The position numbers and the translations under genes were made by a program. From NCBI RefSeq assembly GCF_022549785.1, contig NZ_JAKZGO010000007.1, forward strand, positions 186,001 to 250,000: 64,000 bases of DNA, given 5' to 3'. The notes below the pieces were generated by a model. It worked only from the letters and a program-made list of their open reading frames with translations, had not been told where the DNA came from and did not search any database. This document shows, piece after piece, positions 25,655 to 48,358 of the stretch (positions are counted from its first letter, which is position 1; the number at the start of each line of letters is the position of its first letter). The stretch comes from Belliella alkalica. Lineage in GTDB: Bacteria; Bacteroidota; Bacteroidia; Cytophagales; Cyclobacteriaceae.

Positions 25655-25748
25655 TTCGTAGTGTTTTAAGTTCGAAAACTTCAGAGTCCAACAATCAAAG
25701 TTGGTAAAGGAAAAGCTCAATCAATGCTGACACAAAGTTGAAATAACT

Positions 25749-25825
25749 TTTTCTTCCGCTGGTATCATCCAGGATCAAGTTCAAAGGGTATGATCTCAGC
25801 CTGAACAGGCACCCCTAAAGTTTCA
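25749..25825 (-). ncRNA. TPP riboswitch (THI element) upstream of thiM
   Basis: Read on the minus strand, the conserved THI-box pieces appear in order: AGGGGTGCC, GGCTGAGA, TACCC, GAACTTGATCCTGG, ATACC and AGCGGAAGAAAAA. They match the thiamine pyrophosphate aptamer. It lies about 95 nt before the thiM ATG. A small hairpin (CCAAC/GTTGG, 25688-25704) stands between, but no clear terminator with a U-run is visible. Control may therefore be on translation (inference). Confidence 0.95.
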
Positions 25826-25998
25826 TTTGCTAAATTATTGCTATTCTTGCTCAAAAAAAATTAATAAGGACATAAGTTTTGAGTTTTAATTATTTCATAA
25901 CAGTAATAATAAGAACAATTTAAGTTCTATATGTTACATTTATAAGCCTATTTAAATATAACACCCTTAAAAATTACTATTTATCTAATCCAATTTAC

Positions 25999-45122: not shown

Positions 45123-46058
45123 TCACTTCTTTTGACTAATCTTCTCTACCAATACCTGATTGATTTTTTCATAGGATTGAAATGTCCATCCAGCGACATG
45201 GGGACTGAAAAGGACATTATTTCTACCTGTTAGTTTTTCGAATTCTTCTTTTTGCGATGTTGTAAATGTTTTGAATTTTTCATTCTCCAAGACATCCAAA
45301 ACTGCGCCCTTCAGAATCCCAAGGTCCAAAGCTTTGTTTAGAGTCTCAAAGGAAATCACTTCTCCTCTAGCGGTATTGATCAAATAGATGGGTTTAGAAA
45401 ACTTTTGGAGTAAATCAAGGGTGAAATAATTTCGGGTCTCAGCTGTCAAGGGAACATGAATACTCAAAACATCTGCTTCATCCAATATTTGTTCAAAGGC
45501 TACTTCCTCTACAAAATCAAATTCAATTCCCTTTTTGTATTTATCATAAGCCAAAATTTTGACATCAAAACCCCTTAGTTTCTTTGCAAAAGCCTGTCCC
45601 ATGTTCCCAAAACCAAATATACCTACTGTCTTTCCTGCCAATTCTTCCCCTCGATTACCTTCCCTATCCCAGACACCCTTTCGAACCTGCCCATCAGCAC
45701 GGTTAATATGGTTAAACAATGACAACAAACCTCCTATCGCATGTTCTCCTACTGCATCCCTATTTCCTTCGGGAGCATTATGCAATTGAATTGCTTTTTC
45801 TTCCAAAAACTCCAAATCAATCTGATCCAAACCTGCTCCTGCTCTACCTATAAACTTCAGATTCACAGCTTTCTCCAAAAGCGCTCTATCCATTGGGGTT
45901 TTGGAACGGATGATCAAGCCAATATAATCAGACACAATTGTCAAAATTTCTTCTCTTTTGATCTCAGGCCTGTAATTCACAACAAAACCTTCCGCTTCCA
46001 ACAATGGAATGATCGAAAGGTGCATTTCATCAATTATTAAGACTTTGTTTTGAGTCAT
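45123..46058 (-). CDS. NAD-dependent D-2-hydroxyacid dehydrogenase (SerA-like)
   Basis: A 311-residue enzyme. Seen: FIGRAGAGLDQIDL (substrate Arg), GKTVGIFGFGNMGQAFAKKL (NAD site), INTARGEVI (catalytic Arg region), GAVLDVLENE (Glu) and LFSPHVAGWT (catalytic His). It matches phosphoglycerate dehydrogenase-like enzymes but lacks the C-terminal ACT domain of long SerA. Serine biosynthesis is plausible; no serC or serB is nearby to confirm it. Confidence 0.87.
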   Translation of the reverse strand: MTQNKVLIIDEMHLSIIPLLEAEGFVVNYRPEIKREEILTIVSDYIGLIIRSKTPMDRALLEKAVNLKFIGRAGAGLDQIDLEFLEEKAIQLHNAPEGNRDAVGEHAIGGLLSLFNHINRADGQVRKGVWDREGNRGEELAGKTVGIFGFGNMGQAFAKKLRGFDVKILAYDKYKKGIEFDFVEEVAFEQILDEADVLSIHVPLTAETRNYFTLDLLQKFSKPIYLINTARGEVISFETLNKALDLGILKGAVLDVLENEKFKTFTTSQKEEFEKLTGRNNVLFSPHVAGWTFQSYEKINQVLVEKISQKK

Positions 46059-46397: not shown

Positions 46398-46519
46398 CTA
46401 TTGAAATTAGTTCAACCACTTCGTGGTTGTTATCCTTATCTTTCATCTTTATTCCCCACATTTCAAACGGGGCTATTGAAAATTCAACCCTGCCTGTAGC
46501 AGGCAGGCACTTCGTGGTT
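46398..46519. repeat. Duplicated sequence, second copy interrupted by a 19-bp palindrome
   Basis: Copy 1 (46398-46428) reads CTATTGAAA...TTCAACC directly followed by ACTTCGTGGTT. Copy 2 (46473-46519) has the same words, but CTGCCTGTAGCAGGCAGGC (46490-46508) lies between TTCAACC and ACTTCGTGGTT. Copy 1 therefore looks like the empty site. The insert forms a perfect 8-bp stem with its flanking bases (46489-46507). Confidence 0.65.
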
Positions 46520-46699
46520 TCTCACGTCATTTTATGATTCTTGCTTCTTAGCCTCCTTTTTCGCATCTCTTTAACATTTACTTAGCGTAACTTTGCAGCT
46601 TTGCATCCTTTAAAAATGTCGCTTCCTGAAATTACTTGACACTTTTTTCAAACTTCACCTCTCGTTTTATAGGCAAGTCATTTCGACTAAAGGAGCCTG

Positions 46700-46717
46700 C
46701 CCCGTAGAATTACGGGG
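46700..46717. repeat. CCCCGTA/TACGGGG palindrome within a second intergenic word
   Basis: A perfect 7-bp stem with a GAAT loop. It is preceded by CATTTCGACTAAAGGAG and followed by AGAAATCTCATACTGAA. It may be another small palindromic insertion; no empty copy is present in this window. Confidence 0.5.
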
Positions 46718-46990
46718 AGAAATCTCATACTGAATTTCACACTGCAACTTCAATTTTAACTTTCCAGTTTCAAATAAAGAAGAGACCTTTCATGAATGTT
46801 TTCGGGAGAGAGATGACATTGTAGTATCTCACATCTCACCTCTAGAGTGTCGCGTTTCTCATTTCTAACTTCCTAATCCCTCAATAACTAATCAACTGAT
46901 AACTTTCTATCAGAAACCATTCTAAATCTTAATTTTAAAATCTACAATCATAATTCTTAATAACTCACGTATCACACCTCAAATCTTTCC

Positions 46991-48358
46991 CTAAAGATTC
47001 AAAAACCACATTGCTATTCCAAAATAGATTGCCAATCCAAGAAGGTCATTTGCTGTTGTAATAAAAGGCCCAGAAGCTATGGCTGGGTTGATACCAAACT
47101 TATCCAATACAAGTGGGGTTACAGTCCCCATAAAGGAAGCCATCAGTACTACACAAAACATTGCAAAGCCAATTGTGAGTCCAAAAATACTTTCATTTCC
47201 CAATACAAAAACAACGACCAGGTACACAAAAACCCCCAAGACGACTCCATTCAATAATGCTATTAGGAAACCTTTGATAAACCGCTGCCAAGGAGTATCA
47301 TCGAATACCGACTTTGTGGCCAATGTCTGGACTACGAGTGAAGATGATTGAATCCCAACATTTCCTCCTGTGGCCGCTACCAAAGGAATAAATGCTGCCA
47401 ATGTTACATATTTCTGTAAACCCTCTTCGAAAACTTCAATAATCTGAGACCCCATCAGTCCACCAATTACACCTATCAACAACCATGGTAGCCTTGCTTT
47501 TGAAATCTTAAAAATACTATCTGATTCTTCGACATCAGAAGATATACCTGTCATAGCTTGTATATCTTCTTCTGATTGCTCCCTAATCACATCCAAAATA
47601 TCATCTACTGTAATTCTCCCAACCAATTTATTTTTGGCATTGACTACAGGAATGGATTCCAAATCATACTTCCGCATAATTTCAGCTACTTCCTCTTCGT
47701 CCATGTGTGTTGGAACTGAAATGACTTCAGGTTCATAAATATCTGCGATTTTGGTATCAGAGGAGGCCAATATTATTTTCTTCAAAGCAACCCTACCCAG
47801 TAGATGTTGTCTATTGTCCACTACATATATAGAATAAATCTTCTCAACTTTCTCAGCTTGTCTTCTAATCTCTTCGATGGTTTGTATGACATTCCAGTTC
47901 TGATTGGCTTTTATAAATTCCTTTGCCATCAAGCCCCCTGCACTATCCTCATCGTAGCGCAATAGATCAAGAATATGTGCGGACTTCTCCTTTTCCTGCA
48001 GGTAGCTGATGATATCCTCACGCTCTCTTACAGAGAAAAGATTCAAAATATCCACCCCATCATCAGAATCCATTTGATCAATGTACAGTGCAAGTTCTGA
48101 GGCTTCCATTTCCTTGACCACTTTGATCAGAGAGTCTTCTTCGAGTTCGATCAGAATATCAGCAGCAATATCGGCTGACAATAAGCGCAACACATAAAGC
48201 GCTTCCTCCATGTTGAGTTCATCAAGGAGCGCAGCAATATCTGCTTCTTTGACTCCTTCCAATGATTCTTTGATGAAGGCATTATCCTCTAGCTCGATTG
48301 CTTCCCGGAGGCTTTCCAGGTATTCTTTCGATAACTCAAATATTTTTATTGGTTCCAA
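46991..48358 (-). CDS. mgtE: Magnesium transporter MgtE
   Basis: A 455-residue Mg2+ channel. The N-domain (about 1-130; VREREDIISYLQ, DEDSAGGLMAKEFI) is followed by two CBS domains (YVVDNRQHLLGRV, ESIPVVNAKNKLVGRIT), then five helices (from about 285) with TGGNVGIQSSSLVVQTL and TANDLLGLAIYFGIA. The latter has the conserved Mg2+-binding Asp. The start must be the TTG at 48358: an in-frame stop lies 12 nt upstream and no ATG occurs until about codon 50. It overlaps rsmA by 13 bp, so the two genes form an operon. Confidence 0.95.
   Translation of the reverse strand: MEPIKIFELSKEYLESLREAIELEDNAFIKESLEGVKEADIAALLDELNMEEALYVLRLLSADIAADILIELEEDSLIKVVKEMEASELALYIDQMDSDDGVDILNLFSVREREDIISYLQEKEKSAHILDLLRYDEDSAGGLMAKEFIKANQNWNVIQTIEEIRRQAEKVEKIYSIYVVDNRQHLLGRVALKKIILASSDTKIADIYEPEVISVPTHMDEEEVAEIMRKYDLESIPVVNAKNKLVGRITVDDILDVIREQSEEDIQAMTGISSDVEESDSIFKISKARLPWLLIGVIGGLMGSQIIEVFEEGLQKYVTLAAFIPLVAATGGNVGIQSSSLVVQTLATKSVFDDTPWQRFIKGFLIALLNGVVLGVFVYLVVVFVLGNESIFGLTIGFAMFCVVLMASFMGTVTPLVLDKFGINPAIASGPFITTANDLLGLAIYFGIAMWFLNL

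Follow-up and report, generated by a model that had tools for sequence, protein, structure and literature searches.

A CCTG-tagged palindrome in the right arm of a Belliella three-hairpin repeat as a candidate separable module

The very small mobile repeats of cyanobacteria treated by Elhai et al. in 2008 are reportedly units of ~24 bp inserted in other repeats, with empty sites. A REP sequence is defined, in the parts of PMC6006769 and PMC3733652 available to us, by a 5′ tetranucleotide, GTAG/GTGG or CGTC, at the foot of a hairpin. The same portion of PMC3733652 describes tagged palindromes lying within larger palindromes, with hundreds of target copies for T. roseum, and lists CGTC repeats for Bacteroidetes, with no CCTG family named there.

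We analysed a stretch of 64,000 nucleotides from Belliella alkalica (contig NZ_JAKZGO010000007.1, positions 186,001–250,000; hereafter the window), in which an earlier note had described two nearby copies of one sequence, the second interrupted by a 19-bp palindrome, and had taken them for an insertion beside its own empty site. The observation was real, but its geometry was misread. In the reading that we prefer, with a probability of about 0.58, positions 46410–46519 are a member of a three-hairpin repeat, and the 19-mer is a separate, smaller, CCTG-tagged module in its right arm, after AACC.

Organization of the interval and its repeat family

The element region sits between a dehydrogenase-like gene and mgtE, with the following features.

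45123–46058, minus strand: D-2-hydroxyacid dehydrogenase-like gene, resembling several families under their cut-offs (profile search)
46398–46406 and 46473–46481: word CTATTGAAA (read from the sequence)
46411–46428: left stretch, TTCAACC (46411–46417) directly joined to ACTTCGTGGTT (46418–46428) (read from the sequence)
46483–46519: right stretch, TTCAACC (46483–46489), CTGCCTGTAGCAGGCAGGC (46490–46508), ACTTCGTGGTT (46509–46519) (read from the sequence)
46410–46429, plus strand: left arm, leader GTT and hairpin CAACCAC-TTC-GTGGTTG (46413–46429), without inner palindrome (sequence, DNA fold z −4.75, alignment with 20 other copies)
46454–46472, plus strand: central hairpin CCCC..GGGG, a degenerate form of CCCCGCATTTCATACGGGG (sequence and other copies; the fold is weak here, z −0.80)
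46473–46485, plus strand: link CTATTGAAAATTC from central hairpin to right arm, mostly CTATTCAAAGTTT or similar in other copies (copy comparison)
46486–46519, plus strand: right arm, foot AACC (46486–46489) and GGTT (46516–46519), palindrome-filled, with tip hairpin CAC-TTC-GTG (46508–46516) (sequence, copy comparison, fold z −3.16)
46489–46507, no strand assigned: perfect 19-bp palindrome CCTGCCTG-TAG-CAGGCAGG within the right arm (sequence, genome searches, fold)
46624–46649, plus strand: leader-like piece (GTCCTGAAATTACTTGACACTTTTTT), found ahead of the left arm in many full copies but standing apart from any arm here (comparison by eye)
46677–46726, plus strand: second host repeat GTCATTTCGA..AGAAATCTC, filled here (sequence, comparison with filled and empty forms)
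46696–46717, plus strand: second CCTG-tagged palindrome of the interval, CCTG and CCCCGTAGAATTACGGGG, within the GTCATTTCGA..AGAAATCTC repeat (sequence, module scan)
46991–48358, minus strand: mgtE, TIGR00400 above cut-off (profile search)

The words and the palindrome lie where the earlier note had placed them, TTCAACC being joined to ACTTCGTGGTT in the left stretch and split from it by CTGCCTGTAGCAGGCAGGC in the right one, with the upstream word CTATTGAAA common to both; the offset, given there as 75 bp, is 72 bp for TTCAACC and 91 bp for ACTTCGTGGTT. The boundary of the insertion is ambiguous by one C, and as this C is present at both sides of the junction, the insert can be written equally as CTGCCTGTAGCAGGCAGGC or as CCTGCCTG-TAG-CAGGCAGG. 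Read on the minus strand, the palindrome is CCTG followed by a hairpin. The whole 121-nt interval was predicted to fold as ssDNA better than its shuffles (z −4.99), the predicted fold of the right arm being two adjacent hairpins with the foot AACC/GGTT unpaired.

At up to three mismatches the 19-mer had a single occurrence in the window and none in 100 shuffles, and AACCACTTCGTGGTT at up to two mismatches occurred twice in the window compared with 0.06 expected. Chance does not explain the pattern, but the stretches belong to a single repeat as its two arms. Genome-wide, the 19-mer was found once exactly and at four further places with one or two mismatches. Uniqueness, which would have told against the proposed mobility, thus applies to the exact sequence but not to its type, since these places and the similar palindromes in other arms and genomes rule out a unique type. 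A known Rfam RNA at the palindrome was rejected, the sole match over the gathering score in the window being a TPP riboswitch elsewhere (25734–25826, minus strand, 70.2 bits). Integron attC sites, suggested by the GTTYAAC words, were also rejected, as the complementary box was a misfit by eye.

Searches of the whole genome to which the window belongs (G000, 4.95 Mb) found the palindrome at 5 places, CACTTCGTGGTT at 12 and the link GGGGTTATTTAAAGTTTAAC at 14, and the reversed control patterns gave 0, 1 and 6 respectively. Most of the places found share one architecture. A leader GTCCTGAAAATAGTTGACACTTTTT.. often comes first; the left arm GTTCAACC..GGTTG precedes a central hairpin (e.g. CCCCGGGTTGCGACCCGGGG or CCCCGCATTTCATACGGGG), which the link CTATTCAAAGTTTAACC connects to a right arm with GGTT at its end. 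By this comparison, 46410–46519 reads as one divergent member of a dispersed Belliella repeat consisting of left arm, centre and right arm. Each stretch corresponds to a different arm in the other full copies read; the left arm is therefore no empty site of the right one, and a duplication with an empty site is ruled out. As CTATTGAAA is similar to both the leader and the link of the family, the two arms may be old paralogues; the full copies read carry both.

A covariance model of the element minus its right arm (R1) was made from 17 sequences and, having an automatic structure of just 6 pairs, was used for detection alone. At E≤0.01, with 150 first-look candidates scored per genome so that all counts are lower bounds, it matched at least 38 times in G000 and at least 68 times in the genome of a sister species (G004), and at least 33, 20, 12, 9, 2 and 1 times in the six remaining genomes of the genus, and was present in 8/8 genomes. 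Whole elements also differ between the two species: one at G000 C2:356k is without counterpart in G004, and one at G004 C22:512.9k, lying between GTCATT and TCGA of another repeat, is absent from G000.

Filled and empty arms in two species

The orthologous place was sought via the neighbouring dehydrogenase gene in eight genomes of the genus, the window's own included. One of the seven other genomes, G004 (dehydrogenase 95% identical at the protein level), has the same intergenic region and the same three-hairpin element, and the other six have a different upstream sequence and, by eye, no such element at the place. As in the window, the G004 ortholog combines an empty left arm (AACCCGCTTCGGGGTT) with a filled right one (AACC CTGCCTGACGTCAGGCAGGC CCATTCGGGGTT). 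From this one ortholog, the palindrome is probably ancestral at the window site, and the direct trace of mobility that the earlier note had seen at this locus is not supported. The loop, tip and spacers differ much between the two palindromes, which may have had independent histories.

Arms were then counted in 60 regions around the R1 matches listed, 20 from G000 and 40 from G004 (the sample leaves out G000 C10:93k, C18:287k and C2:363k, four weak G004 matches and R1 matches outside the listing), by a search for [AG]TT[CT]AACC followed by GGTT within 60 bases. There were 84 empty arms (30 in G000, 54 in G004) and 36 filled ones (9 in G000, 27 in G004), the filled count being 38 rows minus L143, a chance match, and the minus-strand row of L109, which repeats a counted row as its reverse complement, with six ‘other’ rows excluded. 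In 34 of the 36 filled arms the insert begins right after AACC and is one of two palindrome types, type A (CTGYCTG..CAGGCAGGC-like; 21 arms) or type B (TCCC..CGG..CAGGC-like, some degenerate or longer-cored; 13 arms); L116 and L154 carry a different insert (CGTCATCCGTCGGGACAGG). The tip that remains is that of some empty arm in 23/36 filled arms, with a boundary free to slide by a few bases. No constant target duplication was noticed on reading the filled and empty forms. Two GAC..GTC arms near a Y1 gene hold a module off this position, on the 3′ side (L004; L042 near 1950).

The A subtype CTGTCTGACGC.. accounts for 10 of the 27 filled arms of G004 and 0 of the 9 of G000; by context five are left and five right arms, with 7 tips in all, and as far as the sample goes this subtype appears to have been amplified in one species. 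Modules and tips are also linked, CTGCCTGYAGCAGGC.. occurring with the tip ACTTCGT in 7/10 arms and with ACTTTGT in 2 more. The tip TCTTCGG is found with a B-type module in L115 and L113 and in 0/84 empty arms, a pattern that copying from arm to arm would predict. On the reverse strand of L120 (G004 C47), four filled B-type arms at 228, 565, 903 and 1241 are spaced by 337–338 nt, perhaps a tandem array of units of about 338 nt, each with its own module, and repeated AATCGTTAAGCGT..AACGTTGAACGATT pieces with 84-nt spacing lie near the arm pair of L102 (81–480, reverse strand).

Modules were not confined to these arms. A scan of 949 kb for a hairpin followed by (C/T)AGGC gave 101 rows, mostly judged chance, but hosts recur, namely the AACC arms, AATTGCC^..TTTTCAGGGC, GTCATTTCGA..^AGAAATCT and AAATCAAGC^..ATGACGAA, and empty forms stand beside filled ones for the AATTGCC host (AATTGCCCTTTCAGGGC) and the GTCATTTCGA host (GTCATTTCGATGGAAGGAGAAATCT and two others). 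The pattern TCCCG N4-12 CGGGACAGGC was present in 45/118 family genomes, 69 times in one, with 0–1 matches per genome and strand for reversed controls, and CTGCCTG N2-6 CAGGCAGGC in 26/198 genomes of the phylum. On the other strand, the constant part of the module is the tag CCTG ahead of the hairpin. Stem pairs 1–5 are fixed by the search pattern; beyond them, and with relatedness ignored, pair 6 was Watson–Crick in 51/61 distinct B units compared with 32.8 expected from composition, with all four pair types, and pair 7 in 14/25 compared with 6.7, and pair 8 showed no excess (3/12 compared with 3.0). The module thus appears to be a palindromic core with a varying, covarying stem.

Comparison of 28 orthologous arms of G000 and G004, two of which (L102/L121) rest on one-sided flank similarity, showed 20 empty in both species, 6 filled in both and 2 that differ. 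The clean difference is L113/L136, where G000 reads AACC TCCCGATTTTCGGAACAAGC TCTTCGGGGTT and G004 reads AACCCCTTCGGGGTT, the 600-base flanks being 98% and 97% identical, with a net 20 nt and one extra base differing alongside. This is a precise empty site in the sister genome for one small module, whether by gain or by loss. The other pair, L099/L126 (AACC^CACTTCGG compared with AACC TCCCGAAATTATCGGAACAGG CACTTTGG), is weaker, with the repeats around it rearranged and ~30 nt of leader before it shared. A further case lies beside the C22:512.9k element in the GTCATTTCGA host, where G004 has CCTGCCCCGTAGAATTACGTGG and G000 has TCGATGGAAGGAGAAATCTC; as 6–8 adjacent bases also differ and the large element starts alongside, it can be supportive only, and among the three presence/absence cases only L113/L136 is clean. 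In an unselective survey of 159 kb of G000–G004 alignment, none of the 38 indels of 12–120 nt within alignments was by reading a clean module gain; a module scan of the same alignments showed a single A-type module in G004, facing a larger gap on the G000 side. Because 26/28 orthologous arms agree and no clean module was among the 38 indels, module turnover appears slow.

The search for many insertions with orthologous empty sites that the earlier note had proposed was borne out in part: filled and empty arms are many and one clean empty site was found, but the window site itself is filled in its ortholog. A palindrome in place at the orthologous site, which by the earlier note would make it ancestral and refute the insertion, was found for the window locus in its one ortholog.

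Candidate movers and alternative explanations

Five Y1 (IS200-like) matches were found in G000. The protein of the gene at C1:81489–81833 matched PF01797, has HIH and YIKNQEEHH motifs by reading, and scored 69.4 with NF033573 IS200 (cut-off 55, passed) and 21.1 with NF047646 REP_Tyr_transpos (cut-off 80, below). R1 matches lie on one side of this gene (C1:81291–81375 and 79326–79410), and arms of similar architecture with the foot GACC/GATC flank it on both sides, a REPtron-like setting. Because of these flanking arms, we infer that this gene is the best candidate mover of the large repeat. Small modules lie nearby at 1/5 Y1 loci (read by eye; scan of L117). Another Y1 transposase gene (YIQNQHQHH by reading) lies in L041 (720–2700) within a dense ACCCTTTCAGGGT hairpin array alternating with CGATGGGTTTTACCCATCG, and L040 and L043 hold other arrays; the motif in L041 resembles that of subclass 1.2, for which the table of PMC6006769, the part of that paper used here, gives no REP.

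A different setting was found at C84:79 kb of G000 (L239 1350–2520), where two intact tRNA-Asp genes are accompanied by a tandem series of five tRNA-Asp-like copies in which a longer hairpin, CCTGTCCCGA..TCGGGA, takes the place of the anticodon arm CCTGCCTGTCACGCAGG, with one base changed in two copies. The array adjoins a small GIY-YIG gene (around C84:79015–79224), followed by one more tRNA-Asp-like piece. This tRNA-borne pattern occurred at 24 places in 11/118 family genomes. With a GIY-YIG profile from 9 seeds, a frame was found in 18 of the 20 tRNA-borne loci fetched (roughly 3-kb loci from the 11 genomes, several overlapping), covering 10/11 genomes, compared with 0/30 three-hairpin-repeat loci, 3/30 dispersed B loci and 0/11 A loci. 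In relatives there are loci where tRNA-Asp-like copies occur with several GIY-YIG frames (3 in L250, 6 in L255 and 9 in L262). In L242 (1382–1760) and L240 (1373–1720), small GIY-YIG genes start straight after a tRNA gene (tRNA-Arg and tRNA-Met respectively); after the gene in L242, inspection by eye shows the tRNA start again as a partial copy. Among 29 family GIY-YIG loci fetched, a predicted tRNA was present in 10, in 9 of them no more than about 150 bases from the matched gene and in L268 farther away.

In the preferred reading, the 19-mer on its minus strand would be the constant tag CCTG and a variable palindrome, resembling the modules that other arms carry at this position and those lodged in unrelated repeats. 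The large repeat would be moved by an IS200-like HuH (Y1) enzyme, and hairpin stems in their single-stranded state may receive copies of the small module, through a Y1-like enzyme or through template switching in replication. The layout, the recurring position, the filled and empty forms and one clean presence/absence difference between two species are established, and we interpret the 19-mer as a separable hairpin module, tagged with CCTG, that turns over slowly. Mobility of the module is supported by the variation but not demonstrated. Of the mobile small palindromic unit that the earlier note had proposed, presence and absence in arms, one clean and one weaker orthologous difference among 28 arms, a subtype seen in filled arms of one species only and the occurrence in other host repeats stand, but transposition, an enzyme and a target duplication do not. 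Counting against the preferred reading are the window site filled in both species, the agreement of 26/28 orthologous arms, the absence of a clean module gain from the 38 indels within alignments, the lack of a noticeable constant target duplication, the dependence between tips and modules, the off-AACC positions near the Y1 gene, the lack of excess at stem pair 8 and the presence of modules near 1/5 Y1 loci only.

It is possible, although we consider it rather unlikely, that no small unit is mobile at all: the filled and empty states would be long-standing alleles within a single repeat family, and a site would switch between them through gene conversion over short tracts or through template switching from copy to copy. 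The linked combinations of module and tip, the unchanged state of most orthologous arms and intergenic regions that look like repeat mosaics differing in blocks between species would all fit such an exchange; however, L113/L136 keeps its locus-specific spacers on both sides, which would confine the conversion tract to about 40 nt or less, the CTGTCTGACGC.. subtype occurs with 7 different tips in left and right arms, and modules are also present in repeats without AACC arms. Much less probable is a selected, immobile hairpin that terminates or processes the mgtE transcript. The minus strand is terminator-like, with 8 pairs followed by GTTGAATTTT (a pattern match; 3 in the region compared with 0.6 expected), and mgtE (46991–48358, minus strand) points towards the palindrome, but the palindrome lies about 480 bp past the gene and similar modules occur at many unrelated places.

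Compatible with the other readings, but in our view unlikely, is an origin of the modules from the tRNA-Asp anticodon arm (CCTGCCTGTCACGCAGG), from which they would have spread out of GIY-YIG/tRNA arrays. The CCTG start and the preceding G are the same in tRNA-Asp, in five tandem G000 copies CCTGTCCCGA..TCGGGA, or a variant of it with one base changed, stands instead of the arm, and such pieces in 11/118 family genomes are accompanied by a GIY-YIG frame in 18/20 loci and in 0/30 controls; yet such a frame lies near just 3/30 dispersed B-type and 0/11 A-type loci, and the stretch of similarity is short and could reflect chance or an insertion that entered tRNA-Asp later. The broader proposal that CCTG-tagged modules of ~20 nt settle in hairpin stems across Cyclobacteriaceae (REP-like arms, other repeats and the tRNA-Asp-like anticodon arm), with the adjacent small GIY-YIG nuclease gene as their source or motor, is one that we regard as doubtful and offer as speculation.

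Comparison with known systems

If the 20-nt hairpin spreads alone between stems, it would amount to a dispersing DNA unit of very small size. If this is true, it would offer a simple system for comparing filled and empty sites between sister strains, and would show a route by which REP-like repeats gain length and subtype diversity. The analysis also points to a GIY-YIG gene set tied to altered tRNA-Asp copies. Literature searches at listing level found nothing relevant on GIY-YIG with tRNA genes, pseudo-tRNA or palindromes, nor on REP in Flavobacteria/Cytophaga, Belliella repeats, small dispersed repeats or nested palindromes.

The cyanobacterial small mobile repeats of Elhai et al. 2008 differ from the Belliella module in phylum and in sequence. 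With REP/BIME/REPIN sequences and their RAYT/TnpA-REP (REPtrons), Belliella shares short intergenic repeats made of a tag and a hairpin, and its three-hairpin repeats resemble the sequences around the Y1 transposase gene of G000. However, the tag of the small module is CCTG, compared with the REP tag GTAG/GTGG in the part of PMC6006769 available to us, and is neither GTAG/GTGG nor CGTC. The motif YIKNQEEHH of the Y1 protein is close to the signature Y---Q--HH of subclass 1.2, which is a no-REP row in the table of that paper. Closest in form are the GTAG-/CGTC-tagged palindromes within larger palindromes of PMC3733652, which likewise are small tagged palindromes inside longer palindromic sequences. 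Unlike that system, as far as the available part of the paper describes it, Belliella has another tag, several tip variants, modules in both arms and in other host repeats, and differences between species. What stands, within the same bounds of that source, is that the CCTG-tagged module, lying within an arm of a larger repeat, is a variant of the known theme of a tagged palindrome within a palindrome (PMC3733652).
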